Source of the DNA: Methanospirillum stamsii
GTDB lineage: Archaea; Halobacteriota; Methanomicrobia; Methanomicrobiales; Methanospirillaceae
Assembly (NCBI RefSeq): GCF_003173335.1
Contig: NZ_QGMZ01000010.1
Span: forward strand, 138,974-202,973
Length of the DNA stretch: 64,000 nt
Direction of reading: 5' to 3'
Made by a program: the position numbers and the translations under genes. This document shows, piece after piece, positions 1 to 30,108 of this stretch. Under the pieces are notes generated by a model. That model was not told where the DNA came from and searched no databases. It saw only the letters and a program-made list of their open reading frames with translations. Position 1 is the stretch's first letter. Each line of letters begins with the position of its first letter.

Positions 1-1
1 A

Positions 2-335
2 CCTATTGATATAGAAATGGAAAGAATGAACAAGTCACCTGAGTTCATTGATACTGAACTTGAAATTCTCAATAAAACACCAAAACCAATTGATATAGAA
101 ATGGAAAGAATGAACACGTCACCTCAATTCATTGATACAAAACTTGAAATTCTCAATAAAACACCAAAACCCATTGACATAGAAATGGAAAGAATGAACA
201 AGTCACCTCAGTTCGTTGATACAGAACTTGAAATTCTCAATAAAACACCAAAACCCATTGACATAGAAATGGAAAGAATGAACACGTCACCTCAGTTAGT
301 TGATACCGAACTCTACCGATTTAATAATACTCCAT
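2..335 (+). repeat. 84-bp in-frame tandem repeat, about four copies, with 42-bp substructure
   Basis: The 15-mer atggaaagaatgaac recurs at 17, 101, 185 and 269, a spacing of exactly 84 bp. The copies differ by a few substitutions, such as aagtcacc/acgtcacc and attgat/gttgat. Each 84-bp unit encodes two related 14-residue halves, so the basic unit is 42 bp. The array continues beyond the left edge. Confidence 0.9.
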
Positions 336-340
336 ACTGA
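2..340 (+). CDS. C-terminal end of a tandem-repeat protein (5' end outside window)
   Basis: The reading frame is open from base 2 and stops at TGA 338-340, so the gene starts before the window. The visible 112 residues are almost wholly four 28-residue repeats with a period of exactly 84 bp (ATG codons at 17, 101, 185 and 269). Each repeat is two similar 14-residue halves with the pattern xExxNK(S/T)PxxIDxE. The last copy decays into LYRFNNTPY before the stop. No signal peptide or membrane segment lies in the visible part, and the composition is hydrophilic and acidic. No family is recognised. The regular spacing suggests a solenoid or coiled repeat. The internal ATG in every repeat is not a convincing start, as none has a ribosome site. 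Confidence 0.7.
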   Translation, partial: PIDIEMERMNKSPEFIDTELEILNKTPKPIDIEMERMNTSPQFIDTKLEILNKTPKPIDIEMERMNKSPQFVDTELEILNKTPKPIDIEMERMNTSPQLVDTELYRFNNTPY

Positions 341-5126: not shown

Positions 5127-7562
5127 ATGCCCATCGGTAGAATAATCCTGCAACAATATATACTAAACCAGGAATTCATAGCCCGTATTCAGAAATATAT
5201 CATAGAACCGAAATATTGGGCACTTGCTACGATTTTAGTTGGCTTTACAGGATTATTCGGATGGATTTTCTCGTTCAGACACCTTGTAGCAATCATTCCG
5301 CAAAGTGTATCTGTTGCTCCGGTCTCAGCGATTTTGTTCATTTTTATAGGAATTAGTCTTTATATCCATGAACGCAGTAAAGCAGATCCCCAGTATTCTG
5401 CGATACACCACAGTCTCCTGATAATATCTCTAATTTTAGCAGTTTGGGGAATAATTTCCATTTTTGTCGGAAATCCGGCAGGCATTAACTGGGAGGGTTA
5501 TACGAGCGAACAGGTATCATGGATTACCCCTCAGGGACAGATGTCCCCGATATCGTCAATCTTGTTTCTTATTCTTATATCCGGGATCGTTTGCAGGCAA
5601 TATTGCGAGACATATGGAAAAACGGTGAGTGTTATTATTACTGTTGCGGGAGCGGTCATGATCCTGGGATACTGGTTTGGATCTCCGTTTTTTTATGGAG
5701 AATCAATAAAACCGGTCTCGTTTCTTACCGCTGCCGGGTTTTTTCTCAGTGGAGTAAGTTTCATGCTGCTTACCCGCCCTTCAGCAATTGATGAGATACT
5801 CCACAATGTCAACTCAATTCACTCACAGATACTTCTCTTCTTTGTTCCCTTTATTATTGCAATCCTGCTCATTGAGGGGTGGATAATTTCTTTTTTTCTT
5901 AAAAAAACCGACAGCACTCTCGTTCTTACGATTGCGACCATCACTCTCATAAGTATCATCGTCACGGTCATTTTTTCTTCATCATTCTCCCGGATAATAA
6001 CGGCCAATGTCGAAAATGCTAATAAGAAGAGAATGGCAGCGGAAAAAGCCTTACTAGACTCATTAATACGAGTGAAAATTGCTACCGATGCTGCAAAAAT
6101 GGGATTTAGTTCATGGGACCTGAAAGAGGATAAAATCACCTGGGACGACAGGATGTATGAACTTTTTGATATCCGGGAGAAAAAACCCATTACCGTTTCA
6201 GATATCATGGGAGTTATCCACCCTCATGATAAACCGGAATTATTCTCCATTGAAGCTATTAAAGAAAAGACTGAGTTTCATACCGAGTTTCGTATAATCC
6301 TCTCTGATTCTCAGGTAAAAACCATCGAGAGCCACGGAAAAGTAATTCCAGGAGACGATGGAGAACCTGAACGAGTGGTGAGTGTAAGTCTTGATATCAC
6401 CCCAAAAATTGAGATGATAGAAACCCTCAATCAGAAGAATGAACAGTTAAGTCAGACATATGAAGAACTCGCTGCACAAGAGGAGGAACTTCGAAGTCAG
6501 TATCGTGAACTTGCAATGATGAATGACGAAGTTACTAATACCCACCGGTTTATTGACGAAGTGATCAGCCAGGCCGGGGAAGGAATTATTGTTCTTGATA
6601 AAAATGGGATAATTAAGACCTGGAACCAGTTTATGGAAGATTTCACGGGTTTTACATCTAAAGAGATGATTGGCCGGATTTTTTCGGATTCTATCCTGGA
6701 ATTGGTTCCCTGCACGGATTCTCAATGTTCATCTTGCACAAAAGAGGAGAGACCGGGGATTTTTTCTGATAACTCATTTATCCGGAGTAGTGACGGATGC
6801 ACAAAATGGTATTCGGCAACCAGTACTCCCCATCATGATATTACGGGGAAGCTTTCAGGAACCATCATCATCATAAAAGATATCACAGATAGAAAAGAGT
6901 TTGAAAATAAACTGACTCAAAGCGAGTCTCTTCTGAAAGCGTCTCAGGAACTTGCAAAGATTGGCGGGTTTGAATACAATCTTCAGACAAAAGAAACTTT
7001 TTGGACCGATGAGACATACCGGATTTTTGGATTAAATCCGGATTTTAACCGTTCAGACGAACTTATTCCGACCATTTTGTCCTGTCTTCTGGAACCTGAA
7101 AAGGAATTACTGATTCAGGCAATTAAAAACTTAAAAGAAACCGGAGAATCCTACGAACTGGAACTTCCGGCAAAAACAATAAAAGGGGACCAGATCTGGA
7201 TACGCACACAGGCAAGGGGAGAATGGCTTGGGGGGCAAATCAGTAAAATCCAGGGGACTTATATGGATATCACCAGGGAAAAAGATCTTGAAAAAGAGAA
7301 AACAATAGCCATCAAACAGGTTCAACGCAATTTTGCAGAACTCGCCATGTTAAATGACGGGATTAGAAATCCTCTCACCATTATCTCCATGATGACAGAG
7401 AACCACAATCAGAAATTGTACTCTGATGTCGAGGTCCAGATAAAAAAGATAGACCAGATTGTAAACCAGCTTGATGCAAGGTGGATTGAGTCTGAATCGG
7501 TATTAAATTACATCCAGAAACATTACAACATTCAGATGAAACCGGCGGATTTAAAAAATTGA
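5127..7562 (+). CDS. Eight-TM sensor with three PAS domains and a His-less HisKA-like C-terminus
   Basis: An 811-residue membrane sensor. About eight transmembrane helices fill residues 30-290. A PAS domain at 305-430 is followed by a coiled coil at 430-470 rich in E and Q, and then two more PAS domains at about 475-600 and 605-735. The second PAS has an unusual Cys cluster (PCTDSQCSSC, near residue 533). The C-terminal 75 residues resemble a HisKA hairpin, but the H-box reads NDGIRNPLTII, with Asp where the phospho-His should be, and no HATPase domain follows. It is therefore not a histidine kinase as such. The same ending occurs in the genes at 10409 and 20785. Start supported by AAGGAGG. 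Confidence 0.8.
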   Translation: MPIGRIILQQYILNQEFIARIQKYIIEPKYWALATILVGFTGLFGWIFSFRHLVAIIPQSVSVAPVSAILFIFIGISLYIHERSKADPQYSAIHHSLLIISLILAVWGIISIFVGNPAGINWEGYTSEQVSWITPQGQMSPISSILFLILISGIVCRQYCETYGKTVSVIITVAGAVMILGYWFGSPFFYGESIKPVSFLTAAGFFLSGVSFMLLTRPSAIDEILHNVNSIHSQILLFFVPFIIAILLIEGWIISFFLKKTDSTLVLTIATITLISIIVTVIFSSSFSRIITANVENANKKRMAAEKALLDSLIRVKIATDAAKMGFSSWDLKEDKITWDDRMYELFDIREKKPITVSDIMGVIHPHDKPELFSIEAIKEKTEFHTEFRIILSDSQVKTIESHGKVIPGDDGEPERVVSVSLDITPKIEMIETLNQKNEQLSQTYEELAAQEEELRSQYRELAMMNDEVTNTHRFIDEVISQAGEGIIVLDKNGIIKTWNQFMEDFTGFTSKEMIGRIFSDSILELVPCTDSQCSSCTKEERPGIFSDNSFIRSSDGCTKWYSATSTPHHDITGKLSGTIIIIKDITDRKEFENKLTQSESLLKASQELAKIGGFEYNLQTKETFWTDETYRIFGLNPDFNRSDELIPTILSCLLEPEKELLIQAIKNLKETGESYELELPAKTIKGDQIWIRTQARGEWLGGQISKIQGTYMDITREKDLEKEKTIAIKQVQRNFAELAMLNDGIRNPLTIISMMTENHNQKLYSDVEVQIKKIDQIVNQLDARWIESESVLNYIQKHYNIQMKPADLKN

Positions 7563-7637
7563 GTTTTATATTGATAAATAAGCACCGGATTCAATGATTT
7601 CCGTCGATATCTAATACCACCCTTCCCAGAAAAAGCG

Positions 7638-8048
7638 TCACATTTTTTCGCCCGGAGGTTTGTCTTTTATCTCCAGCATTGTTTCACTTACGTTAAGCAC
7701 CTGATGGACCCAGGCTTTTGGATCTTTTAAATCTCCCGGATACCGGGGAATTAGGTGAATATGGAGGTGCATGACCGTCTGTCCGGCAACCATGCCATCG
7801 TTTATCGCGATATTGAACCCTTCCGGGTGATAGGTGTTGTCAAGATGCTGTTTTCCAAGACGGACCAGGTCCCATAACGCAGATTGTTCATTTTCTGAAA
7901 TTTCAAAATATGATCTGATATGACGAAAAGGGATGATAAGCATGTGTCCGGGAGTAACCGGATAATCATCAAAACGGGAGTACGCATGAGTATTACTGAA
8001 AACAACAACATCAGGTTTTGGAGAACAGAAGATACAGGGTTTTTTCAT
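7638..8048 (-). CDS. HIT-family (histidine triad) nucleotide hydrolase/transferase
   Basis: A 136-residue soluble protein of HIT size. The active-site triad is HLHIHL, with His at residues 94, 96 and 98; the middle His is the nucleophile in this family. An N-terminal CIFC pair (residues 5 and 8) could bind zinc, as in Hint-type members. GFNIAINDG lies upstream of the triad as expected. HIT proteins hydrolyse nucleotide phosphoramidates or related dinucleotides; the substrate here is not predictable. It stands alone, convergent with the sensor gene at 5127 and divergent from the chemoreceptor at 8229, and has no evident link to signalling. Confidence 0.9.
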   Translation of the reverse strand: MKKPCIFCSPKPDVVVFSNTHAYSRFDDYPVTPGHMLIIPFRHIRSYFEISENEQSALWDLVRLGKQHLDNTYHPEGFNIAINDGMVAGQTVMHLHIHLIPRYPGDLKDPKAWVHQVLNVSETMLEIKDKPPGEKM

Positions 8049-8228
8049 CGCATATATGTCTGAACGATATCGAAAATTAATTATCGGGATCTGATACTCA
8101 ACTTGAGGTTTATGTTTTTAAGTGATAACTGTTACAAGTATATTATTTACGGAACTATCCAGGTGCCTTACAGGAGAGGGGGCTTAAAATGATTTTTAAA
8201 CAGATACATGGCATTACGGAGGGGGATA

Positions 8229-10352
8229 ATGAACATTTTTAACAGTATCTCAAATATCCGGATAGGGAGACGATTAATTGGCGGTTTTATCATCGTCACT
8301 ATTCTTATGGCTTTTGTCGGGGTTGTTGGTTTTTTGGGGATGAACTCGGTGAGTATTGGAATGGACAAGGTGTACTCAGACGGGACCGTGCCCCTCTATG
8401 AAGTAACCAGTATTGAAACGTCACTAAATTCCATACGAGCGCTGACATTTCGGACCGCTGCCCTTCCTGCAGAACGCGAGCAGGATGAAAAAAGGATGCA
8501 GGATGAAATTGCTAAGATAGATGCCCATATCGGAGAGTTAAAAACCGCCGAACTTACTCCGGAAGAAAAAGTGAACCTCTCAAAGTTCGAAGGACAGTGG
8601 ACCACCTATAAATCAGCGGCACAGGAAGTGTTTACTCTTCTAAAAGCGGGAAAAACCAAGGAAGGGCTGACATCTATTGCAAACGGGGGAAATCATGCAA
8701 ACGCAAGACGAGCCACTGCAGGGACGTTTGAAGATCTGAAAACCGGAATTCTGACCAATAGTAAGCGTATTGCAGCGAACGGCCATGCTGAGATGGAACG
8801 GACCATTCCGCTCATGGCAGCTCTTGCAGTGTTCGTGGTAATTCTTGCAATGGGACTTGCAATTCTTATTACCAGAAGTATCACATTACCGCTGTACCAG
8901 GTGATGAACCAGTTTGATAGTATGACAAGGGGTGAAATTTCCGGAAGATTATATCTCAACCGCACCGATGAGATCGGGGATATGGCCGGAATGATTGACC
9001 GTTTTTCAGATTATCTTGAACATGATGTCGTCGGAACCATGCACCGGATTGCGGCAGGTGATCTTTTGGCGACTATTGAAAACAGAGGTGCAAAGGACCA
9101 GATTACTCCTGCATTTACAGAAACCCTTACTGCTCTCAATCACGTTATAGTGGAACTCAAAAACCTTGTTGACCGGACCTCCATGGGAGACCTGTCCGTT
9201 AAAGGTTCCCCGGGAGACCTTCAGGGATCATACCGGGACATCATTTTGGGATTTAATCGTACCCTGGGGGCCATCATAAATCCTCTGTCCGGTGCTATTG
9301 CGTTGTCCAAGGACTATTCAGAGTGTAATTTTGCTGCCCGGTTTCCTTCGGACATCAAGGTAGAGGGAGACTTTTGTGAATTTCGCTCCGCACTCAATAC
9401 CATCGGAGATGAGATCTCGAAGTCTCTAGCCCTTGTATCCGGACAGTTGAACGACCTTTCAAGCCATGCTTCTCATGCCTCGGTTGGAATTGAAGATGTC
9501 AGGAGAGGTGCGAAAGAAATTTCCTCCAAAGCTGACATGACAAATACAAATGCTCAGCGTAGTGAAGATGGAATCGAGCAGGTGCTCAAAGCAATGGAAG
9601 ATCTGACGGTAACCGTCACGTCCATATCTTCAAATGTTGATGCAGTTGCACAGGCCGGGACAAATGCTGATAATCTGGCAAAGAAAGGGATTATCTCATC
9701 ATCCCTGGCTGACGAAGGGATGAGCAAGATAAAAGAGTCTTCAGTCGAAGTTGAGAGAACAATCAAAGACATCCAAGGCCAGATGGCGGAGATAACCAAC
9801 ATCATCAAGATAATTACCGACATCTCGGAGCAAACTAATCTGCTGGCATTAAACGCAGCAATTGAAGCTGCACGGGCCGGAGATGCGGGCCTTGGGTTTG
9901 CGGTTGTCGCCGGAGAAGTAAAAGCACTTGCAAACCAGACCGGAGATTCTACCCAGAAAATTGCATTGATGATAAGCGGTCTTGAATCGCAGAGTGCAAA
10001 GGCGGTTGCAGCAATGGATGAAGCCGCAAAAGCAGTGAACCAGGGTGAAGGTGCCCTGAAAGAGACGGTTGAGACTTTTGCAGACCTTACCAAAGCAGTC
10101 GAAGAGATAAGTCATAACATGAATACCGTTGCAGGGGCGATAGAAGAGCAGGCCGCTTCATTTGAGGAAATTACCGCAAGTGTTACGGATATGAGTGGGT
10201 TTATCAAAGAAACGGTGAAAGATGCCCTGAATTCTTCTGCCACCGCAGAGGAAGCGATTAACGTGGTGGAGCAGATTACCGGAATCATTAATGAGATTAA
10301 TGAGGTGGTGGATGTCACCAGCACTGAGATGAAACGGTTTGTTCTTTCCTGA
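8229..10352 (+). CDS. Methyl-accepting chemotaxis protein with multiple HAMP segments
   Basis: A 707-residue chemoreceptor. A first membrane helix at about 15-35 is followed by a roughly 155-residue helical periplasmic-side bundle (4HB-type) and a second helix near 193-215. A long region follows with HAMP-like repeats (IAAGDL, SMGDLS and a third, weaker one), and then the signalling hairpin. Its conserved tip is [18 protein letters not shown] followed by [13 protein letters not shown], the CheA/CheW-binding region. The ATG at 8229 is preferred over an upstream in-frame ATG at 8208 because GGAGGGGG precedes it by four bases. No cheA or cheW gene is in the window, so it must act with components elsewhere. 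Confidence 0.93.
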
Positions 10353-10364
10353 TTACATATAACC

Positions 10365-10371
10365 TTTTTTT
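10365..10371 (+). terminator. T-tract terminator after the chemoreceptor gene
   Basis: Seven consecutive T residues begin 12 bases after the chemoreceptor stop. This is the usual form of an intrinsic terminator in archaea. No strong hairpin precedes it. Confidence 0.45.
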
Positions 10372-10408
10372 CAGGAATGAACTTTTACAGGAGGACAAGT
10401 TTCGAAGA

Positions 10409-11434
10409 TTAATCCTTTTTACCCATTTTGTAATGTTTGAGCAGGAAATTTCTTACGGCATCTGACTGTATCCATCCCTTATCTAGCTGGTTTACCAGAT
10501 TATCTATTCGTTTAACCTGATCTAAAATATCATTATTTTCCTTTGATTCAGACATGGATGCCAGAGATGCGATGATTGCAAGGGGATTGCGGATTTGATC
10601 ATTGAGGATGAGAAACTGTTCCATGTTTTGTTCAATCTGCTCAATTCCCTTATTTCTAATCTCCTTCTCAATCCGGACCATAGAAGAGATATCATTTATC
10701 TGACCGACAACCTGAATAACTCCGTTTACTCCTTCCCCTCCATCATCTGCCATGACCGGAACAATAGTGGAGTCAAGCCATACCTCTTCTTCCTGGTATG
10801 TAAAGGAATGAGTGACCCGAAGAGAACCTCCGAATTCAAAAACCGTTTTTGCCTGTTCCTCCAGGGTAGTTAAAAGATCTGGCGGGAATATGGCATGCAT
10901 ATCAGGAGCCGCTGTCATGTCAGGAACATGAAAATAATCTTTTCCAAAGGAATTGAGATATGCAACGGAGTAATCAGGATTCAGGATAAAAATAATATTT
11001 TCTGACAATTCAGCAATAGCCCGGTATCGTTTCTCACTCTCAACAAGGGCTTTATCCATGGCATGTTTATAAAGAGCCATCCGGATGGTGGTATGAAGGG
11101 CACGCTCTTCAAGGGGTTTTATTAAGTACCCGAATGGCTCCGAATGAATAGCCTTTTGAACGGTGGCTTCGTCAGAATGGGCGGTCAGATAAATGACAGG
11201 AATATAATATTTCTTACGGATGATATCAGCAGCCTCAATCCCGGTCATCTCTCCTTTCAGGGTGATATCCATGATCATGATGTCAGGATGTAATTCTCCG
11301 ACTTTTTTTACTGCATCTTCTCCATTGTCAAGAATATCAGGCACATCATACCCCAGATCCTCAAGACGTGCCCTTATTTCTAGACCGGTGACAAATTCAT
11401 CCTCGACGACGAGTACTTTTTCATGCTCTTTCAT
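10409..11434 (-). CDS. Response regulator: REC-PAS with His-less HisKA-like C-terminus
   Basis: A 341-residue cytoplasmic protein. The receiver domain (residues 5-122) has the acidic pair EDE, the phospho-Asp in MIMDITL, Thr in YLTAHSD and the conserved Lys in YLIKP, so it should be phosphorylatable. A PAS domain spans about 132-260. The last 70 residues contain NDQIRNPLAII, the same HisKA-like motif with Asp in place of His as at 5127 and 20785, and end with a long helix (QLDKGWIQSDAVRNFL). There is no ATPase domain and no DNA-binding domain. Monocistronic on the minus strand, convergent with the chemoreceptor gene. A cognate kinase may be one of the large kinases just upstream, at 11665 or 14753. 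Confidence 0.85.
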   Translation of the reverse strand: MKEHEKVLVVEDEFVTGLEIRARLEDLGYDVPDILDNGEDAVKKVGELHPDIMIMDITLKGEMTGIEAADIIRKKYYIPVIYLTAHSDEATVQKAIHSEPFGYLIKPLEERALHTTIRMALYKHAMDKALVESEKRYRAIAELSENIIFILNPDYSVAYLNSFGKDYFHVPDMTAAPDMHAIFPPDLLTTLEEQAKTVFEFGGSLRVTHSFTYQEEEVWLDSTIVPVMADDGGEGVNGVIQVVGQINDISSMVRIEKEIRNKGIEQIEQNMEQFLILNDQIRNPLAIIASLASMSESKENNDILDQVKRIDNLVNQLDKGWIQSDAVRNFLLKHYKMGKKD

Positions 11435-11664
11435 GGGGACCAGACCACCCTCTTAAGAGAGAGACAGAATTTTTAGATATCCTAAGTTTTCAATCATTAC
11501 CTATCAGAAAGGATTATCCAATTATCGTTTTCAGGTATCTAGGGTTATCATCACACTACTACAAAGAAGTTGTGGTAATATATCCGGACATTATTATAAA
11601 AAAAGGAATAAATTTCAGTTTTAATAAAAACAGTGCCCAGTTTAAAGAAAAAATAAAGAGATAA

Positions 11665-14600
11665 TTAATCTGGAAAAGTGATGAGAAACCGGGATCCTGA
11701 TGGCCTGTCAACGGTAATAGAACCCTGTAATTGTCCGATCAATCCATATACTAATTGTAATCCAAGGGTTTTCAGGTTATCAACGGAAATTTCTTCAGGA
11801 ATTCCAATCCCATCATCTTCATACTGGATGGTGAATTCATGATTGGCTTTAGAGATTGTAATGGAAATATTCCCACTCCGGTTGTCAGGAAAGGCATATT
11901 TCAGGGAATTTGATATGAGTTCGTTGATGATAAGACTGCAGGGAACCGCTTTATCAATATTCATGTAAACTACCTGCTGACTTATCGTACAGGAGATACG
12001 GGTATTGTCAGTATTATATGATTCAAAAATATGGTGAGCAATTTTGTGTAAATAATCAGTATAATCAATATTATCAAAATCTTTTGACTGATAGAGTTTT
12101 TCATGGACAAGAGCGATTGATTTTATCCGGTTTTGGGATTCGAGAAGAACATTTTTTACTTCCTGCTGGTCAATCGTCCGTGCCTGCATGTACAAAAGAC
12201 TGGATACCACCTGCATGTTATTTTTTACCCGGTGATGAATCTCTTTTAGGAGAACTTCTTTGTCCTTGAGTGAGGATTTAAGTTCTTCAGTCCTGGACTC
12301 TACCTCCTGCTCCAGTTTTTCATTAAATTTTAGCAGTTCTTCTTCTTTCTTTTTGAGTTCAGTGATATCAGTCAGAACATTGAGCGATGCTGGAGATCCG
12401 GAGTATTGAATTTTACACCCTCTGACAACAACCGTCCTGATTGCTCCGGATTTTGAGATTATCTTGATTTCATAGGGGGGAATGTCTTTCTCATCCATCC
12501 TCATGCGAATTGCTTCAGCAATCATGCGATGATATTCTGGTGTTATGTAATTTATCAGGGAAGTGCCATACAATTCATCTAAGGTATACTCCATTGCCTC
12601 TGCCACACTCGGATTCACATACAGGATTATTCCATCCTTATGCACAAGGATAAAATCAGGAACGTTTTCAACAAGGGAGCGGTATCGCTCTTCACTTTCA
12701 CGAAGAACAGCCTCTGCTCTTTTCCGGTGGGAAATGTCGGTGTGAGTGCCTACCATCCGGAGCGGTTGATTATTCGCATCAAAGGTTACTACTTTCCCAC
12801 GGGTGAGAATCCACATATAATCACCGGACTTTTGTCTCATCCGGAGTTCTATTTCATATGGACCTGGATTATTGGAAAAATGCTCTGAGATCTTCTGTAT
12901 CACCTTATCTCTATCTTCCGGGTGAATTAATGAGACGAATGTTTCATATGATTCCGGCATTTCATAGGGTTCATATCCAAGCATGGTGTACCATCGGGGA
13001 TTAAAAAAAGTCCTGCCGGATGGAATATCCCAGTCCCAGTACCCGTCATCAATCGCTTCAAGGGTATATTGGAGCCGTTCTTCACTTTTCTGAAGATTTC
13101 TCTCAATCTCTTTCTTTTTACTGATATCAAGACATATCCCGGACAATCTGGCCGGAACACCATCATTATTATATTGTGTCTTTCCAGTAGATCCAATCCA
13201 GCGATTTGTACCATCTGGGAGAATGATGCGATATTCAACCCAGGGGTCAGTTTTTTCTTTAAGACCTTCGGTAATTTTTTTTATGGCTATTGGCAGGTCA
13301 TCAGGATGAACAATTGATTTCCATGTTTCAATTGATGGATGTGCATCTTTCGGAAGGCCATATAAATCCAGTAATCCATCAGACCAGGTCATGGTATTAT
13401 GAAGAATGTCCCAGTCCCATGAACCGGCATTTGCCGCCTGTTGTGTAAAAATGAGCCACTCTTGAGTGTTTTTAAGGGTTTCTTCTGCTTTTTTCTCTTC
13501 GGTTACATCATCATAAATTACAACGACTTCTCCGTTTGGAATTTTATAGATGTAATTATCACGCCATCCGGAACGCTGTGAATCAGAATAAAAAGAGACC
13601 GGATGCCTTTGTGGAATCCCGGTCATCCAGACCTTTTTTATCACAGGTAAAAGGCCAAATTCTTTGACTCCGGGAAAAACCTCCAGAACAGAATGACCGA
13701 TTATATCAGGTTTATGGACCCCTTCAATCTTTTCTGCGGCAGAATTCATATCGGCGATAAAAAAATCATTCCCTTCATCCACAGCAGAATAAATTACAAC
13801 TCCGGAATGCATATTGGAAAATAATCCATGGAATCTGTCCTCACTATCCTGGATTACCTGTGTCTGCTGACGTATCTGATTCTCTTGTGAATGTGATAAC
13901 TGCAGGTACTTATCAAGAGTTTTTTGCCGTTCCTCAATGGCTGCTTTTAAGAAAAGACTGATGATAGAAGTTACAACCATAAAAAGTTGAACCGAGAGCA
14001 ATGTCTCTGTCGTTGAAAGTCCGATAAATGCTCCCCTTTCCAACACAACAAGAGAAACGGCCACCATATTTCCGATTAAAAGGGTAAAGATAACATGAGG
14101 AATTGATAACCGGAATACCGCATATAAAATAAAAATAAAAAAAAGATACGGGGTGGATCCATCAAAAATCAGGATAGAAAAGGGAAATAAGACAAGATAG
14201 TATAAAATATGTTCAATGGACTTTAACGAAGAAAGAAATACCCGGCGGTTTTTTCCGAGGAGAATCAAGGGAGTAATAATGAGAATGCCGGAAAGATCGC
14301 CAAGCCACCAGGTAAAGAGATTCAAAACATAATAAGAAGGACTGAGATATTCAAATAGAAAAAGGGTTGAGACTCCCAGTAATCCTCCAATAAGACTTGA
14401 AAATGCACCTATAACAATAAACCAGAAGACATTTTCCGGAGTATCAAAACGGAAAGATTCCACATCTAAGCGGGTGAAAAGATAGAAAAACACCAGTGCT
14501 TCAGTACAACATGCAAATCCCAGAATCAATGCTACTTCGGGAGCTACCTGTGTACTGCTCACCGCCAGGGTTGAGCCTGCAAAGACCCCTACAAGAACCG

Positions 14601-14775
14601 GCAGTTTCCAAAGAATAATTGCTGCGATGGCAATACCAGCCGGAATCCAAACGGGCGATACATTACTGTAACTTATCCCGAATAATAAAGAGATTCGGGC
14701 AGAAATGTAATAACTTATCGTAACGATGATGATATGAACCAGAATATTTCGATTACTCCGGAAACACGATCTCAT
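11665..14775 (-). CDS. MASE1-PAS sensor histidine kinase (HisKA_2 type)
   Basis: A 1036-residue kinase. The N-terminal 290 residues are a MASE1-like multi-helix membrane sensor (SPVWIPAGIAIA motif; AFSSLIGGLLGVS; WWLGDLSGILIITPL). Four PAS domains follow at roughly 325-420, 435-560, 565-690 and 690-815. A HisKA_2 domain carries the H-box KEIHHRVKNNMQVVSSLL, and an HATPase domain follows (INELISNSLKYAF; DDGIGIPE). The start is set at the ATG at 14775 because AAGGAG precedes it by seven bases; an in-frame ATG at 14814 lacks one. It overlaps the end of the upstream kinase gene by 23 bp, indicating coupled translation. The catalytic core is closely similar to that of its neighbour. Confidence 0.9.
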   Translation of the reverse strand: MRSCFRSNRNILVHIIIVTISYYISARISLLFGISYSNVSPVWIPAGIAIAAIILWKLPVLVGVFAGSTLAVSSTQVAPEVALILGFACCTEALVFFYLFTRLDVESFRFDTPENVFWFIVIGAFSSLIGGLLGVSTLFLFEYLSPSYYVLNLFTWWLGDLSGILIITPLILLGKNRRVFLSSLKSIEHILYYLVLFPFSILIFDGSTPYLFFIFILYAVFRLSIPHVIFTLLIGNMVAVSLVVLERGAFIGLSTTETLLSVQLFMVVTSIISLFLKAAIEERQKTLDKYLQLSHSQENQIRQQTQVIQDSEDRFHGLFSNMHSGVVIYSAVDEGNDFFIADMNSAAEKIEGVHKPDIIGHSVLEVFPGVKEFGLLPVIKKVWMTGIPQRHPVSFYSDSQRSGWRDNYIYKIPNGEVVVIYDDVTEEKKAEETLKNTQEWLIFTQQAANAGSWDWDILHNTMTWSDGLLDLYGLPKDAHPSIETWKSIVHPDDLPIAIKKITEGLKEKTDPWVEYRIILPDGTNRWIGSTGKTQYNNDGVPARLSGICLDISKKKEIERNLQKSEERLQYTLEAIDDGYWDWDIPSGRTFFNPRWYTMLGYEPYEMPESYETFVSLIHPEDRDKVIQKISEHFSNNPGPYEIELRMRQKSGDYMWILTRGKVVTFDANNQPLRMVGTHTDISHRKRAEAVLRESEERYRSLVENVPDFILVHKDGIILYVNPSVAEAMEYTLDELYGTSLINYITPEYHRMIAEAIRMRMDEKDIPPYEIKIISKSGAIRTVVVRGCKIQYSGSPASLNVLTDITELKKKEEELLKFNEKLEQEVESRTEELKSSLKDKEVLLKEIHHRVKNNMQVVSSLLYMQARTIDQQEVKNVLLESQNRIKSIALVHEKLYQSKDFDNIDYTDYLHKIAHHIFESYNTDNTRISCTISQQVVYMNIDKAVPCSLIINELISNSLKYAFPDNRSGNISITISKANHEFTIQYEDDGIGIPEEISVDNLKTLGLQLVYGLIGQLQGSITVDRPSGSRFLITFPD

Positions 14776-17700
14776 ACCTGACTCCTTTTGTTTTATCAAT
14801 GGATAAAGAACCACCCAGTTGTTTCACAAGACCCTGAATGAGTTCAAGACCCAGAGTATGTGGGGATTTTTGTGAATCTGAAAGGCATAGCCCGATACCA
14901 TCATCAGCATATACGAGATGATATTCACCATTCGTGAGAGAAAAATCTATCAGGATATTTCCCTTCCTAGAATCGGGGAATGCATGTTTGAGAGAATTCG
15001 AGATGAGTTCATTGATGATGAGACTACAGGGAACTGCCTTTGAAATGTTTAAATAGACCTTTTCCTCGGAAATCGTTATGGTAATCCGGCCGGTGTCCAC
15101 TTTATAGGTATCAAATATATTCCGGGATATTTTATGGAGATAACGGGTATAATCAATCTGATCAAGATCCATTGACTGATAGAGTTCTTCATGCACCAAT
15201 GCAATGGATTTTACCCGGGTCTGACTTTCGAGGAGAATTTCTTTTACTTTTTCATCTGTTGAAAGCCGTGACTGCATAAAAAGCAGGCTGGATACTACCT
15301 GCATGTTATTTTTTACCCGGTGATGGATCTCCTTCAGCAGGATCTCTTTCTCCCGGAGAGATCTTTCAATCTGAATTTCCATCTCCTTTTTCTTTGTAAC
15401 ATCACGAAAACTCCAGACTCTCCCGACTATGGAATAACCTATTCGTTGAGGTTTGGAATATCTCTCAAATATCCTGTTATCAGAAAGGGTCAGTGTGTCA
15501 AATGAGTCCTCTTCAGGATTGTCATATATAGCCCTGATTCTTTCATTAAATGACTGCTCATCCGGAATAGATTTTCGGAGTTCTGAAAGAATCGGATTTT
15601 CTTCTTTTAACCGAAGAACAGACTCCGGAATTTTCCACATATCCACGAACATCCGGTTATACAGCAATACATTCCCGGAAGAATCGGTTACAAAAATGCC
15701 ATCTGTGGTGGATTCAAGGGTAGCAGACAAGATAGAAAGAGCTTCCTGAAGATTTTTTTCAGCCCTGATTCGTTCATCGACTTCAGACTGTAACTCTTCA
15801 TTGATGAATGTCAACTGGTTGGTTCTCTCATGAACCCGCTCTTCTAAGGTCTGGTTAATGTGGCAGATCTTCTCTTCATTCTCTTTTATCCGGGAGATGT
15901 CGAGGATAAATGCAACCGAATCTTCCCTTTTTTGCCCAACCAGAACATACCCTACTAAAACCCAGGTACGAAGACCATCTTTTCTGATGAACTGTTTTTC
16001 ATATGGAGTACAGCTGCCGGATTCTTTCGCTTCTGCTATTCCCTGCTCGTCAAGATAAAGAAACTCTTCAGGAGTAATATCAGTCCATCGGACATTTCCG
16101 GCAGAAAAATCTTCTCTTGAATATCCGATAATCCGGAGAAACTCATCATTTACCTGGGAGACTGACCCGAAAATGTCACCAAACATAGTACCAAGGACCG
16201 GAGAGTTAAACAAAGCCGATACTTTTTCCTGGTAATGACGGATTTTCTCTTCAAACTCCCTTTTTTCGGTAACATCCTGAACAACGCCGATAATTTTATG
16301 CGGTTTTCCATGTAAATCATGCTGAAGTTCTCCAACTGATGTAATAATATGGTCAGGAGAACCATCTGCTGGATGAATCCTGAATTCTGAATTAAATGGT
16401 TTCCCTTTCTCAATAACCTCAGTAATTTCTGACTGAACCCTGTCCTTCTCTTCAATACAGGCAAAAATCGAAGTTATATCAATCATTCCATTGGAGGAAG
16501 GGGAAAGCCCGTAAATCTGGTATGCCTCATCAGTACCCCACATTTTTCCCTGAAGAATATAATACTCCCAAAGTCCGACATGACCGGCACGCTGGGCCTT
16601 AACAAGCCTGGAATGCATCTCCTGGAGCTGAATTTCACTCTGGCGGAGCATCTCCATCTGGTCACGAAGTTCTTCCTGCTGTGAAGCAAGTTCTTCATAT
16701 GAAGCATGTATCTCCTCATTCATCGTCTGCAATTCAACATTTTTCTCAAGGAGTTCGGTTTCATATTTTTTTCTTTCAGATATATCACGAATAATAGACT
16801 GTCTGAGTGTAATTCCATTCACGTCAATCAAACGGGTACTGTTCTCCACCGGAATGAGTGTCCCGTCTTTTTTCTGGTGCTCGGTTTGCAAAAATGTGCC
16901 TGCGGATTTACTCATTTTTATTTTATCATCTTCAATAGTCCGTTTTGCAGAATCTGACCGAAGATCAAAGAGAGTTTTTTGATAGAATTCTTCAGGAGTA
17001 TACCCGTACATTTCCACTGCACGGTCATTCACTTCAAGAATACGATAATCATCATCAAGGATTATTATCGCATCATTTGCCTGTTGCATCAGGGAACGAA
17101 CCCGGCCCGCAAGAAATATCTCTTGTTTTTGCTGATTTAATTCAAGGTTTATTAGATCAGTCTCCCATTTTTTCCTGAAAAAAAGGACGATTACTGATGC
17201 ACAAACAAAGAGCAGAAAAAGCAGCCCCAATACACTCATCGAAAAATTTCTGAAGGGAGTATAAATTTCATCCTGGTCAACTTTTGCAACGATAAACCAG
17301 GGTGTTCCGGTAATGTTGGTAATGGATGCAACTACCGGAATCCCCCGGTAATCATTTCCTTTTACAATACCACGATATCCTTTCGCTGCCATTACCGCTG
17401 GAACATCCTCCATCGTTACCGGGATGGTTAAGGTAAGACCTGAATCGGGCAGATGCCGGAGATCATTCAAAAATAACATCTGACCATTGGTCTGCCGGGT
17501 AATTAATGACTCGGCGCTTTTACTAACAGAAGGCCATGTCTGAATCAGGGGATAGAGGTACTGTTCAGGATTTAATTGCAATACCAGGATTCCAAGTAAT
17601 TCTTCGCCGGATTTGCTCCGGATTGGAACCCAGAATTCAAGTTTTTTTTCGCCGCTATCCGGATCCAAAAAGAGATCGGTACTTACGGGGCTTTCTGACC

Positions 17701-18145
17701 GGATAATTTCCGGGTATATGCTTTGATAGGTGAAAGAACTTATCGTACCATTTTCAGGAACAGACAAAACCTGATTTCCGGAACTCTCCAATAAAATGAT
17801 ACTCTGGTACCTATAGCCGGAAATTAAACTTCTCATCCATGCCTTCATATCCTCTTTCGTGACTTTATAAATTCCCGGATTTGTGAGATTCTCAAGATAC
17901 TCTCGTAGCATGATATTTTTCTGGGCAACCTCTGCATCAGACCTTCGCTCATGATACCAGTCAGCAATCGATCCCGCCTTTAACTCTGCAATAGTGGAGA
18001 GCTCAGACTGAATCTCCTCTTCAGTTTCTGTTTGCTGATGTTGAATCGCTAAAAAACCGATAATGGTGATGCATAGAAAAATAAGAACCAGAGCAGTGAT
18101 AAAAAAATCCCTCTTGGTTAAAAGAGATCCAGGTATCATATCCAT
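14753..18145 (-). CDS. Cache-domain PAS sensor histidine kinase (HisKA_2 type)
   Basis: A 1130-residue membrane sensor kinase. Helices near residues 15-33 and 302-322 flank a roughly 270-residue extracellular Cache-type domain (IPVVASITNITGTPWFIVAKV at its end). PAS domains follow at about 345-465, 515-640, 645-760 and 815-925, with coiled-coil linkers. The HisKA_2 H-box is KEIHHRVKNNMQVVSSLL, followed by an HATPase domain (INELISNSLKHAF; DDGIGLCLSD). The start may instead be the second ATG at 18139, which is better spaced from GAGAGG. First gene of a two-gene unit with the overlapping MASE1 kinase; both could phosphorylate the regulator at 10409, which is inference. Confidence 0.9.
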   Translation of the reverse strand: MDMIPGSLLTKRDFFITALVLIFLCITIIGFLAIQHQQTETEEEIQSELSTIAELKAGSIADWYHERRSDAEVAQKNIMLREYLENLTNPGIYKVTKEDMKAWMRSLISGYRYQSIILLESSGNQVLSVPENGTISSFTYQSIYPEIIRSESPVSTDLFLDPDSGEKKLEFWVPIRSKSGEELLGILVLQLNPEQYLYPLIQTWPSVSKSAESLITRQTNGQMLFLNDLRHLPDSGLTLTIPVTMEDVPAVMAAKGYRGIVKGNDYRGIPVVASITNITGTPWFIVAKVDQDEIYTPFRNFSMSVLGLLFLLFVCASVIVLFFRKKWETDLINLELNQQKQEIFLAGRVRSLMQQANDAIIILDDDYRILEVNDRAVEMYGYTPEEFYQKTLFDLRSDSAKRTIEDDKIKMSKSAGTFLQTEHQKKDGTLIPVENSTRLIDVNGITLRQSIIRDISERKKYETELLEKNVELQTMNEEIHASYEELASQQEELRDQMEMLRQSEIQLQEMHSRLVKAQRAGHVGLWEYYILQGKMWGTDEAYQIYGLSPSSNGMIDITSIFACIEEKDRVQSEITEVIEKGKPFNSEFRIHPADGSPDHIITSVGELQHDLHGKPHKIIGVVQDVTEKREFEEKIRHYQEKVSALFNSPVLGTMFGDIFGSVSQVNDEFLRIIGYSREDFSAGNVRWTDITPEEFLYLDEQGIAEAKESGSCTPYEKQFIRKDGLRTWVLVGYVLVGQKREDSVAFILDISRIKENEEKICHINQTLEERVHERTNQLTFINEELQSEVDERIRAEKNLQEALSILSATLESTTDGIFVTDSSGNVLLYNRMFVDMWKIPESVLRLKEENPILSELRKSIPDEQSFNERIRAIYDNPEEDSFDTLTLSDNRIFERYSKPQRIGYSIVGRVWSFRDVTKKKEMEIQIERSLREKEILLKEIHHRVKNNMQVVSSLLFMQSRLSTDEKVKEILLESQTRVKSIALVHEELYQSMDLDQIDYTRYLHKISRNIFDTYKVDTGRITITISEEKVYLNISKAVPCSLIINELISNSLKHAFPDSRKGNILIDFSLTNGEYHLVYADDGIGLCLSDSQKSPHTLGLELIQGLVKQLGGSLSIDKTKGVRYEIVFPE

Positions 18146-18474
18146 CGCCTCTCTTCTGATGCGTTCAAGAACCAGAAATCAGGAGAGAAAAACTTCCAGT
18201 TACTTGATCCGGAATCAATCACGGTTATTTTTTCATTGTTATTATTCCAAGAGATTCGGTTAGACATCTGGCACGATAATTACCAATAGTCGTACGTAGT
18301 ATAAGATGCCTTCTTCCCAATAAAATCCGCGTATTTTTACTAATTTCAAAAAAAATCTTAAATTTCCCTTTTAAGAGATAAAAAAATCGTTATGAATTCA
18401 TTAAATTTTTATGATAACTACCAGCACATAATTCAGAGATATATTAAATAGATGGAGATAACATAATCCAATTC
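18146..18474. other. Divergent intergenic region with a TATA-like box for the plus-strand kinase gene
   Basis: These 329 bp lie between two divergent kinase genes. They are A+T-rich, and no open frame of protein character was seen. ATATATTAAA at 18439-18448 lies about 30 bases before the ATG at 18475, matching an archaeal TATA box for a transcript with a very short leader. No other structure was recognised. Confidence 0.45.
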
Positions 18475-20411
18475 ATGAAACTCCGGACACGGGTATTTTT
18501 TCTGTATCTCTGTATTATAACCCTTGTTCTTGTTTGTATCGGAGTTATCATGCCGTCATCATTGCATGAACAAAACCTGGAGAATGTCAGAACTGATTCT
18601 GTGAACCAGCTGAGGCATATTGACTTTGCCCTGTCTAATTTTATCAAAGAAGTAAAACAGGATATCTCTGAACTCCTGATGCATGAAACGGTGATTGATC
18701 CTGATGACAGGGGATTTACCAGTTTTCTGAATGTCTCTGAGGATACGTTTCAGTATGACATCGGAGACAGGGAAGCCAGGATAATTGATGATCTGAATGC
18801 ATTCCGTCTTACCCACCCGGCTGTCAATTCTGTATACATGGGAAGAGAATCCGGATCTTTTGTCAGATCTCATCCAAGACCAGTTCCAACCAGGTATGAT
18901 CCCCGGACAAGGCCGTGGTATACCTTAGCAAAAAATAATCCGGAGGCTGTTATGATAACTGAACCATACCAGTCGGTCACTTCTCCGGATGTGAATATTG
19001 GAATCGTAAAAGCCATGATGTATCCAAATGGAACCGTCTATGGCGTTCTTGGGGCAGAGTCACCTTAATTAATCTGACAGAATATATCTCATCAATAAAA
19101 GTTGGAAGGTCCGGAGAGATAATGCTGGTAAATGAATCAGGAATCATTCTGGCCTCAAAGGATTCGAAAAATACTTTCTCCGATATCAGAAATATCATTG
19201 GTAACCAGACTGACTATCTGCTCAATAACTCTGAAGGTATCATTACCCTTCCCTCATCATACCTCATCTTTTACACATCGCCCATGCTGGGATGGAAACT
19301 GCTCATCACCATTCCCTATAGTCAGATAGAAGAGGAGATAATAAAATCAATAGTATTAATCCTTCTTTTTGTATTTGCAGCCCTGATTCTTCTGAGTATT
19401 ATTACTCTTATCATTCTAGACAAAACCATCATCCGTCCCCTTTCCACGTTGACAGATATTACGAAAAATATCACCGAAACAGGAGATCTGAATCAGAAGA
19501 TAGATGTTGATATGAAAGGAGAAGTGGGAGAGCTTGCAAGTTCATTTACCCTGATGATTGCAAAAATCCAGGAGCAGGAAGGATTAAAAAATAAGGCATT
19601 TGCCGAGTTATCATCATACCGGGACCACCTGGAAGAGCTGGTTCGTGAACGGACAGGTCAGCTGGAAAAAAGTAATCAGGAACTTGTCATCGAAAAAGAC
19701 CGGGCTGAAGCAGCCGACCAGTTAAAATCGGCATTTATTGCAACAATGTCTCATGAGCTGAGAACCCCTCTGAATTCTATCATCGGGTTTACCGGAATAA
19801 TACTCCAGGGTCTTGCCGGGCCATTAAACCAGGAACAGCATAAACAGCTGACAATGGTCCAGCAAAGTGCCAGGCATCTTCTTGCCCTGATAAATGATGT
19901 TTTAGACATCTCCAAGATTGAAGCCGGAGAACTCAATATTACCAGAGAACCGGTAGAGGTCCAGAATACAATCCAGACCGTTATTACCACATTGCAAAAA
20001 TCTGCAGAAGATAAAGGTCTCCGGATTATAACCGATCTTTCCTCAAAACCCATGGAAATTAGCGGCGATCCACGAAGGATAGAACAGATATTAATTAACC
20101 TCATTAACAACGCGATAAAATTTACCGAACAGGGAACTATCACGATAAAAAGTATTATGAACGGTAATACGATAGAGATATCAGTATCAGATACCGGCAT
20201 CGGGATTGAAAAAGAGGATATGGACAAACTCTTCCGGCCATTTCATCAGATTGATACCGGGACAACCCGAAAACATGAAGGAACCGGTCTTGGTCTTTCA
20301 ATCACGAAAAAACTGGTTGAACTTCATGGGGGAACAATATCTGTGACCAGTAAACCCGGACAGGGCAGTGTGTTTACGATTATACTCCCGGCATTGGAGG
20401 GAACTTCATGA
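18475..20411 (+). pseudogene. dCache-HAMP sensor histidine kinase split by a one-base frameshift
   Basis: Two frames together make one complete kinase. The first (18475-19068) has a membrane helix and most of a dCache sensor, ending GVLGAE before a premature stop. The second frame continues from about 19059 as VTLINLTEYIS, then IMLVNESGIILAS, a second helix near 19340-19410, HAMP, HisKA (ATMSHELRTPLNSIIGF) and HATPase (INLINNAIKF; GTGLGLSITKKL). The join fits the loss of one base at about 19059-19060. There is no slippery heptamer, so programmed frameshifting looks unlikely. Either this is a real inactivating mutation or an assembly error. An internal ATG at 19122 could still give a membrane kinase lacking most of its sensor. 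It overlaps the next regulator gene by 4 bp (ATGA). Confidence 0.85.
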
Positions 20412-20785
20412 CTCAAAAGATCCTGGTAATAGAAGATAATGAACAGAATATGTACCTCATTCACTTTTTGCTTGAATCGCAGGGATATATAGTGTTTGAA
20501 GCAGAAAACGGCCTGATTGGAATAGATAAAGCAGTCAACGAACACCCGGATATCATTCTCCTTGACATTCAGTTACCTGAAATGGACGGGTATGAAATTG
20601 CACGAATTATTCGGAAGACAGAAGGAATTGATAAAATCCCCATAATCGCTGTGACATCATATGCAATGGCAGGTGATAAAGAGAAGATTCTTGCAGCCGG
20701 TGCAACAGACTACATTGAAAAACCCATAAATCCGGCAACATTTGTAGATCAGATAAAAATTCACTTTCCGGATGGTAAGAAATAA
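20408..20785 (+). CDS. Single-domain response regulator (CheY-like)
   Basis: A 125-residue receiver domain and nothing else. The acidic pocket is IEDNEQN. The phospho-Asp lies in IILLDIQLPEMDG, Thr/Ser in AVTSYAM, and the conserved Lys in YIEKPINP. The ATG overlaps the stop of the preceding kinase (ATGA), and the gene's own stop overlaps the next ATG (TAATG), so the three genes are probably co-translated. It may be a phosphoryl shuttle between the kinase and the following PAS regulator, since it has no output domain. The preceding kinase carries a frameshift, which would leave this regulator without its local partner if real. Confidence 0.93.
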   Translation: MTQKILVIEDNEQNMYLIHFLLESQGYIVFEAENGLIGIDKAVNEHPDIILLDIQLPEMDGYEIARIIRKTEGIDKIPIIAVTSYAMAGDKEKILAAGATDYIEKPINPATFVDQIKIHFPDGKK

Positions 20786-21930
20786 TGAATGTGCTCATTA
20801 TTGATGATCAATATATCAACCGGTATCTTTTGGAAAAACTCCTTGCAGGATATGGATATACCGTTATATCTGCAGTTGACGGAGTTGATGCACTTGAAAA
20901 ACTCCGGGAGAACGATATCAATCTTATTATTTCTGATATCCTGCTTCCAAGGATGGATGGTTTTCAGTTATGCCGGGAAGTCAAAAATAACCCGGACTTT
21001 AATAAAATTCCCTTTATTTTTTATACTGCCGCATATACCGAACAAAAGGACAGAGAATTCGCAGAAAGTCTTGGTGCAGACAGGTTTGTCATTAAACCCA
21101 CAGATCCTGCAGACTTCATGGATATTATTAAAAATCTGACCAATGAGTACAAGGGAAAAGAGGTCCCTGAACCAAAGAAGATAATCCTCGGAGAGAATGA
21201 ATATCTCTCTGAACATAATAAGCGGCTTATCTATCAGCTTGAAAAGAAACTGGTTGAACTTGAAGATATGAACAAAGCCCTTCGATTATCTGAAAAACGA
21301 TATAAAAACCTTTTTGAATATGCAAATGATGCAATAATTCTCCATGAAATTACCCCCACCGGAGAGTTTGGAAAGATTATGGAAGCCAACGGGGTTGCAT
21401 GTTCCCTTTTAGGATATTCACACGACGAACTGCTTGGAATGAGTATGAACGAGATAGATACTGCAAAACAATCTGCTCATTACCAGGAGTTCATGGAAAA
21501 GTTACTGGAGAAGAAACATCTCATGTTTGACGGAGAGCATCTGTCAAAAGATAAGAGAATAATCCCGGTTGAAATTAGTGCACACCTCTTTATAGAGAAT
21601 GGTTCACGATTTTGTCTGGTGATTTGTCGGGATATTACCTTTAGAAAGCAGGCAGTGGAGGAACTGAAAATAGCCATTGAACAGATTGATGATAATCTCC
21701 GCCAGATTTCAACAATCGGAGATCAGATCCGAAATCCTCTCTCTATTATTCTTATATGCTGCGAAGAAAAAAAGACAGATGAACAGATACAAATTACCGA
21801 AGCGGTCCAATCAATTGATTCCTTTATCAAAAAACTTGATATTAGCTCAATAGAATCTGAAAAAATCCGGAGTGCTCTTACGAGATTACATGGCAGTTCA
21901 ATATATACCATTGGGAAAGAAGAACCGTAA
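20785..21930 (+). CDS. Response regulator: REC-PAS with His-less HisKA-like C-terminus
   Basis: A 381-residue cytoplasmic protein. The receiver (residues 2-120) has IDDQ, phospho-Asp in IISDILLPRMDG, and Lys in FVIKPTDP. A coiled linker near 150-170 leads to a PAS domain at about 172-290. The C-terminal 90 residues contain GDQIRNPLSIILI, again Asp where HisKA has its phospho-His, then a second helix (IKKLDISSIESEKIRSAL). No ATPase or DNA-binding domain. It has the same architecture as the protein at 10409 and the same ending as the sensor at 5127. Last gene of the kinase-REC-REC/PAS operon, with a one-base overlap upstream. Confidence 0.87.
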   Translation: MNVLIIDDQYINRYLLEKLLAGYGYTVISAVDGVDALEKLRENDINLIISDILLPRMDGFQLCREVKNNPDFNKIPFIFYTAAYTEQKDREFAESLGADRFVIKPTDPADFMDIIKNLTNEYKGKEVPEPKKIILGENEYLSEHNKRLIYQLEKKLVELEDMNKALRLSEKRYKNLFEYANDAIILHEITPTGEFGKIMEANGVACSLLGYSHDELLGMSMNEIDTAKQSAHYQEFMEKLLEKKHLMFDGEHLSKDKRIIPVEISAHLFIENGSRFCLVICRDITFRKQAVEELKIAIEQIDDNLRQISTIGDQIRNPLSIILICCEEKKTDEQIQITEAVQSIDSFIKKLDISSIESEKIRSALTRLHGSSIYTIGKEEP

Positions 21931-30096: not shown

Positions 30097-30108
30097 AATC
30101 AATCCCTT

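Follow-up and report, generated by a model that had tools for sequence, protein, structure and literature searches.

A class of archaeal proteins that carry a HisKA-like domain, but not the ATPase domain of a histidine kinase, has been described by Galperin et al. (2018) as 'nonenzymatic HK-like proteins' or 'HisKA, no HATPase' (PMC5847659). The HisKA-like domain of these proteins is C-terminal and follows PAS or GAF domains, sometimes together with a receiver domain (REC). It was stated to have a conserved His, and phospho-acceptance was considered. Archaeoglobus fulgidus, Methanoculleus marisnigri and Methanolacinia petrolearia were named for this class (PMC5847659). Most members of the class are reported to carry a wrong annotation as histidine kinases. 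Three proteins encoded in a 64,000 nt stretch of the Methanospirillum stamsii genome (GCF_003173335.1, contig NZ_QGMZ01000010.1, 138,974-202,973, forward strand; hereafter the window) end in a domain with the same arrangement. Because Asp is present at the position of the HisKA His in this domain, it is termed the D-type domain here, and residues are numbered from this position (0). The class is already known. As far as the literature searched shows, it is new that Asp is nearly invariant, that the acidic residue at +1 is lost while an amide at +4 is retained, that the D-types form a single clade and that their spacing from PAS is fixed. An earlier note on this DNA had pointed to the three tails, but had overlooked both the residue pattern that suggests retention of phosphatase and docking functions and the prior description of the class (PMC5847659).

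The three tails (Table 1) are homologous over roughly 75-85 amino acid residues and share the second-helix motif LDxxW/SIxSE/D, as the earlier note had proposed. The copy at 21676-21927 is the most divergent, with S instead of W in this motif. Pfam detects no HATPase domain in any of the three proteins and HisKA (PF00512) only below its cut-off (18.4, 20.6 and 13.3 bits, as compared with 26.9), and NCBIfam gives no family for the tails. When one tail is used as a query, 18 clear copies are found in the same genome, together with one weak non-member (E 0.05). R-N-P-L and one Ser are invariant in the alignment of these 18 copies (A1), and Asp is present in 17 of them. With the A1 profile, the family is detected in 52 of 61 near relatives and, at E ≤ 1e-9, in 171 of the class's 232 genomes, which carry as many as 23 copies each. 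The three tails represent one domain family, far beyond chance, because 18 copies are present in their own genome and strong matches in these 171 genomes.

Among 394 genomes drawn from the phylum, one further family (f9) is strongly matched by the A1 profile. We take f9 to be Archaeoglobaceae and its members to be A. fulgidus DSM 4304, Ferroglobus placidus, A. sulfaticallidus and A. veneficus, so that the D-type distribution agrees with that of the class of Galperin et al., which occurs mainly in Archaeoglobi and Methanomicrobia. The D-x-IRNPL box without a directly following ATPase domain is kept far outside the window, and the family is present in methane-producing and sulfate-reducing archaea. 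A scan of genome contigs with a single sequence matches only Methanospirillum and Methanomicrobiales/Methanospirillaceae bins, but such a stringent scan does not show that the family is absent elsewhere. No match to the D-type domain is found in plasmids by tblastn.

The residue pattern of the H-box was analyzed for 194 loci, which yield 205 distinct matches, 199 of which are family members with a readable key position. Position 0 is Asp in 197 copies, Glu in one and Ser in one, and His in none; the sole Ser is in a short fragment open reading frame. In a 145-sequence alignment, from which the Glu and Ser copies are excluded, Asp is the single invariant column at a mean column identity of 35%. 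The acidic residue of HisKA at +1 is mostly lost, because this position is Glu or Asp in only 28 of the 199 copies; it is His in 71, Gly in 46, and Gln, Arg, Lys or others in the rest. Arg or Lys is present at +3 in all 199 copies, and Pro at +5 and Leu at +6 in about 97%. Position +4 is Asn, Thr or Gln in 186 copies. Counted by residue, it is Asn in 172, Gln in 11, His in 10, Thr in two and Leu in two; the two copies that have Glu or Ser at position 0 have Asn or Asp here. The acid-amide pair is DxxxN in 172 copies, DxxxQ in 11, all from Methanoculleaceae, DxxxT in two and other in 14. The second helix has its own motif, LDxGWxESEKIRxFL, which is not shared with the kinases of the genome.

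The D-type domain is related to the dimerization and histidine phosphotransfer (DHp) hairpin of the kinases. HisKA (PF00512) matches 144 of the 145 members (best E 8e-12), the profile alignment to 4jas pairs DxIRNPL with HELRTPL of HK853, and a sequence search of PDB gives weak DHp matches, the best to an HK853 entry (E 0.004) and the next to the EnvZ DHp. When 76 D-type and 51 His-type hairpins are aligned together, Asp of the former and His of the latter fall in one column, so that Asp is located exactly where the earlier note had placed it. In the window's genome, where 68 of 75 PF00512 matches were inspected, none of the 17 D-types detected by HisKA has an ATPase domain directly behind it. 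The His-types of this genome continue for about 200 residues or more, except for one 67-residue fragment and three at contig ends. The tree of the 127 hairpins separates D-types from His-types without error (support 0.90). One D-type is misplaced when positions 0 and +1 are masked (support 0.895), and one when the whole H-box is masked (support 0.83); the support values are moderate because the alignment is short. This separation indicates one origin and long maintenance rather than repeated decay. His with an ATPase domain is not the rule among the homologues: the nearest His-bearing ones have HDIRNPL and HATPase, come from other families of the phylum, are matched weakly (E 2e-7 to 3e-4) and lie outside the D-type clade. 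The unusual sequences at the margin of the search (L114-L117), in which AHDIRNPLSVA is followed by about 150 residues, are genuine His kinases from such other families. One ancient family under selection is strongly supported by these results, as the earlier note had suspected, because Asp is kept in 197 of 199 sequences that are only about 30% identical and because the D-types form one clade.

Two of the genomes analyzed, G330 and G103, are taken as A. fulgidus and M. marisnigri JR1, and the genus of the latter (g21) is presumably Methanoculleus. Asp is present at the His position in 18 of 18 copies from these genomes. Seven D-types are found in G103, as compared with seven genes stated by Galperin et al. 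for M. marisnigri JR1, and 11 in G330, as compared with seven counted by them for A. fulgidus. AF_1472, their example of REC-PAS-HisKA, is probably the REC-PAS-D protein at 1.33 Mb of the contig taken as A. fulgidus (L235), as judged from its locus number. A conserved His is not found in either genome; the only frequent His is that at +1, which is not conserved. The published description of this class as having a conserved His appears to be wrong, because the 11 and 7 copies of these two named genomes all have Asp.

The D-type domain most commonly follows one or more PAS domains (PASn-D), and next most commonly REC and PAS domains (REC-PASn-D); REC-D proteins without a detected PAS domain are also present. 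Most copies lack REC or any other output domain. Seven copies are internal, ahead of further PAS domains; in nearly all the others the protein stops no more than about 32 residues past the domain, and no D-type copy is directly followed by an ATPase domain. In five proteins (L007, L058, L063, L068 and L070) the D-type domain precedes a PASn-HATPase kinase, with an HDIxN box in four of them, and in L252 the order is reversed, a complete kinase being followed by PAS3-D. These fusion proteins are very large, and the kinase has a PAS set of its own. L013 belongs with the first order, but its stretch stops before the ATPase domain. The distance from the DIT motif of PAS to Asp is exactly 30 residues in 122 of 142 copies with this motif, and 23 residues, or one heptad less, in five of them. 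In true kinases from the same loci this spacing is mostly 27, with minor classes of 34, 41 and 48, so that the heptad phase from DIT to the output domain differs between the two types. The D-type domain is probably the regulated output, because a signalling coiled coil needs a fixed spacing that changes by heptads. The D-type domain at 10412-10645 is modelled by AlphaFold2 as a two-helix hairpin (helices 2-37 and 43-79) with a mean predicted local distance difference test score of 91.2, and in the model of the full REC-PAS-D protein an unbroken 45-residue helix runs from PAS into the first helix of the hairpin. PDB entries matched by the full model include receiver domains and PAS-linked kinases.

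The best explanation for this family, in which moderate confidence is placed, is that its members are PAS-controlled docking domains without kinase activity that dephosphorylate response regulators. The DHp hairpin would have permanently lost the kinase reaction and kept receiver docking and phosphoryl removal as its output. An upstream PAS domain, or REC and PAS, would sense the signal and transmit it through the signalling helix of fixed length to the hairpin. The usual receiver-docking face would be formed in the dimer by Arg(+3), Pro(+5) and Leu(+6). Asn or Gln at +4 would position the attacking water, and the invariant Asp, located one turn of the helix from it, would replace His as the acid of an acid-x-x-x-amide pair similar to DxxxQ. 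The outcome would be a response-regulator phosphatase that is controlled by a sensor, needs no ATP and works against separate kinases. For HisKA kinases it has been shown that the acidic residue at +1 is needed only for kinase activity and Asn or Thr at +4 only for phosphatase activity (PMC3510030), the water-positioning residue at +4 being located one helical turn past His (PMC5231405). The half-life of a phosphorylated response regulator is 53.5 min alone, and 0.7, 2.6 and 47.6 min in the presence of the wild-type, H371A and N375A proteins, respectively (PMC3510030); the His-to-Ala mutant retains most of the phosphatase activity (PMC3510030; Willett and Kirby). Phosphatase activity is favoured because His, the acidic +1 residue and the catalytic and ATP-binding (CA) domain are lost while the phosphatase-only amide at +4 and the docking face are kept, and because the spacing from Asp to the amide is that of the acid-amide DxxxQ motif of CheZ and HisKA_3 (PMC3510030; PMC5231405). 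It has also been raised independently as an intriguing possibility for ATPase-less HisKA proteins (PMC5847659). The clean split from His-types in the window's genome, the single clade, the fixed spacing from PAS, the fusions to complete kinases in both orders and the 11 copies with a literal DxxxQ are likewise in its favour, as is the gene neighbourhood: seven of the 18 D-type genes of this genome have a domain of ATPase or receiver type, encoded by another gene, no more than 3 kb away (18% expected, p 0.03). The fuller proposal, that a large family of single origin acts as stand-alone sensor phosphatases, in which the change from His to Asp creates DxxxN/Q and up to about twenty PAS sensors per genome only switch regulators off, uncoupled from any kinase, is held more tentatively.

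Several observations weigh against dephosphorylation. Some kinases, such as PleC, require His for phosphatase activity (PMC3510030), and DivL is a His-less DHp protein that binds a receiver without a phosphatase role (PMC4211667). The most serious objection comes from Methanoculleaceae, where 12 of 32 copies carry His or Leu at +4 while Asp is still invariant; the water-positioning role should be weakened by these copies, and Asp may be more important than the amide. The box reads DHIRHPL or DHIRLPL, with His at +1 kept, in L128, L133, L176, L179, L180, L181 and L184, from Methanoculleaceae-like genomes. Foldseek gives no match in PDB at E ≤ 0.001 for the 86-residue hairpin alone, a search that is weak because two-helix hairpins match many unrelated proteins, and the structural argument rests on sequence homology for this reason. 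The enrichment of the gene neighbourhood is only modest (p 0.014 for ATPase and 0.14 for receiver domains taken separately), and many D-type genes have no kinase or receiver gene nearby.

The strongest rival is a reader or sequestering domain similar to DivL, which would bind receivers, perhaps phosphorylated ones, without hydrolysis, and would either titrate the regulator or feed back, to the PAS/REC part of the same protein or to a kinase that it partners. This is rather unlikely. In its favour, the docking residues (Arg at +3, Pro and Leu) are conserved as much as Asp, and the most invariant residue is that at position 0 and not that at +4. In DivL itself, Tyr replaces His; DivK~P is bound by the same face, and this binding is lost upon R553A mutation, at +3 from Tyr550 (PMC4211667). 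A reader would, however, leave the phosphatase-specific amide at +4, present in 93% of the copies, unexplained, and DivL retains the CA domain, which D-types lack. The idea of the earlier note, that the hairpin pairs with the DHp domain of a true kinase as a modulator or decoy and blocks or tunes trans-phosphorylation, is unlikely. The homology to DHp detected by HisKA and the fusion of some proteins to complete kinases are in its favour, but dimerization explains neither an invariant Asp at a normally exposed site nor the docking face, and a clade of its own with a distinct second helix suggests self-pairing. Still less probable is a plain dimerization or structural domain that ends PAS sensors whose real output lies elsewhere, for example in REC or protein-protein contacts. 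Galperin et al. propose dimerization and protein-protein contacts for REC-PAS-HisKA proteins, but the H-box residues Asp, Arg, Asn, Pro and Leu rank with the best-conserved positions in the domain, and REC or another output domain is missing from most copies.

A role as a new phospho-acceptor, in which Asp or the frequent +1 His takes the phosphoryl group from a kinase or receiver, is highly improbable; such a role was suggested for the 'conserved His' in the published description (PMC5847659). His at +1 is present in 27 of the 32 Methanoculleaceae copies, but it is not conserved overall, with Gly, Arg, Glu, Gln and Lys also common, and an ATPase domain is absent. Phosphorylation of Asp from phospho-His is known for receiver folds and is not known for a helical hairpin. 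Independent decay of kinases can be rejected almost with certainty: loss of His and of the ATPase domain is common in decay, but a single clade, up to 23 copies per genome and the constancy of Asp, common to Methanomicrobiales and Archaeoglobaceae, contradict it. Selection, as suggested by the earlier note, is thus upheld, while none of the decoy, heterodimer and unusual phospho-acceptor roles that it offered is the best reading. The phosphatase explanation leads to two single-residue predictions, one for the invariant Asp and one for the retained amide at +4. If D-types are phosphatases or readers, much of archaeal two-component signalling, including that of globally important methanogens and Archaeoglobus, in which these proteins are numerous, has sensors that set only the off-rate or the docking of a regulator.

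Table 1. D-type proteins of the window, their D-type domains and the adjoining kinase and receiver genes
Feature	Position	Strand	Basis and remarks
Membrane sensor, PAS domains and C-terminal D-type domain, 811 aa	5127-7562	+	Open reading frame; Pfam PAS_3, PAS, no HATPase
D-type DHp-like domain, IKQVQRNFAELAMLNDGIRNPL	7311-7559	+	Asp codon 7356-7358 (NDGIRNPL), residue 744
REC-PAS-D protein, 341 aa, receiver complete-looking	10409-11434	-	Response_reg 2.8e-21, PAS_4, sub-threshold HisKA, no HATPase
D-type DHp-like domain, IEQIEQNMEQFLILNDQIRNPL	10412-10645	-	Asp codon 10598-10600 (NDQIRNPL), residue 279
Genuine HisKA-HATPase kinase (HELRTPL), possible partner	19122-20411	+	HisKA 3.4e-20, HATPase_c 3.5e-33
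Single-domain CheY-like receiver, possible substrate	20408-20785	+	Response_reg 1.9e-27 (contig 159393-159728)
REC-PAS-D protein, 381 aa; gene 3 in HK-REC-(REC-PAS-D) run	20785-21930	+	Open reading frame; Pfam
D-type DHp-like domain, IEQIDDNLRQISTIGDQIRNPL	21676-21927	+	Asp codon 21721-21723 (GDQIRNPL), residue 313

The last three genes of Table 1 (19122-20411, 20408-20785 and 20785-21930) overlap end to end, and this run provides a candidate set of a kinase, its substrate and a D-type protein. The kinase gene that precedes the receiver gene appears to be split. A sensor-like first part is encoded at 18475-19068 (+), and 19122-20411 is in another frame with a partial dCache domain at its start; a frameshift, natural or introduced by assembly, probably interrupts one sensor-HAMP-HisKA-HATPase gene at 18475-20411. 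Two large multi-PAS kinases are encoded next to each other at 11665-18145 (-). Their H-box is different (EIHHRVKNNMQVVSSLL) and similar to that of HisKA_2 as judged by eye, and the pairing suggests a recent duplication. The protein of 1928 residues encoded at 24316-30102 (-) is read from its sequence as having a start similar to Ser/Thr protein kinases, followed by an ATPase-like and a repeat region, an HELRTPL histidine kinase and a C-terminal receiver. The repetitive peptide MERMNxSPxFIDTELEILNKTPKPIDIE is encoded at 1-340 (+) by a tandem repeat with a period of 84 bases and a sub-period of 42 bases (3.7 copies, 93% matches).

In a comparison with known systems, the D-type domain has in common with HisKA (PF00512) the R-N/T-P-L box and a helical hairpin after a PAS signalling helix. 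It differs from HisKA in that phospho-His, the acidic +1 residue and the CA domain are missing and in that the second helix has its own motif; the window copies score under the Pfam cut-off. As in the DxxxQ motif of CheZ and of the HisKA_3 proteins NarX and DesK, an acid and an amide of a long helix are separated by a single turn. The acid is, however, at +1 in HisKA_3 and at position 0 in D-types, and the likeness noted to CheZ is one of motif spacing. DivL from Caulobacter is similar to D-types in that it has lost His, which is replaced by Tyr, from a PAS-linked DHp domain that binds the DivK~P receiver. It is different from them in that it keeps the CA domain, is not a phosphatase and is a lineage-specific single gene.

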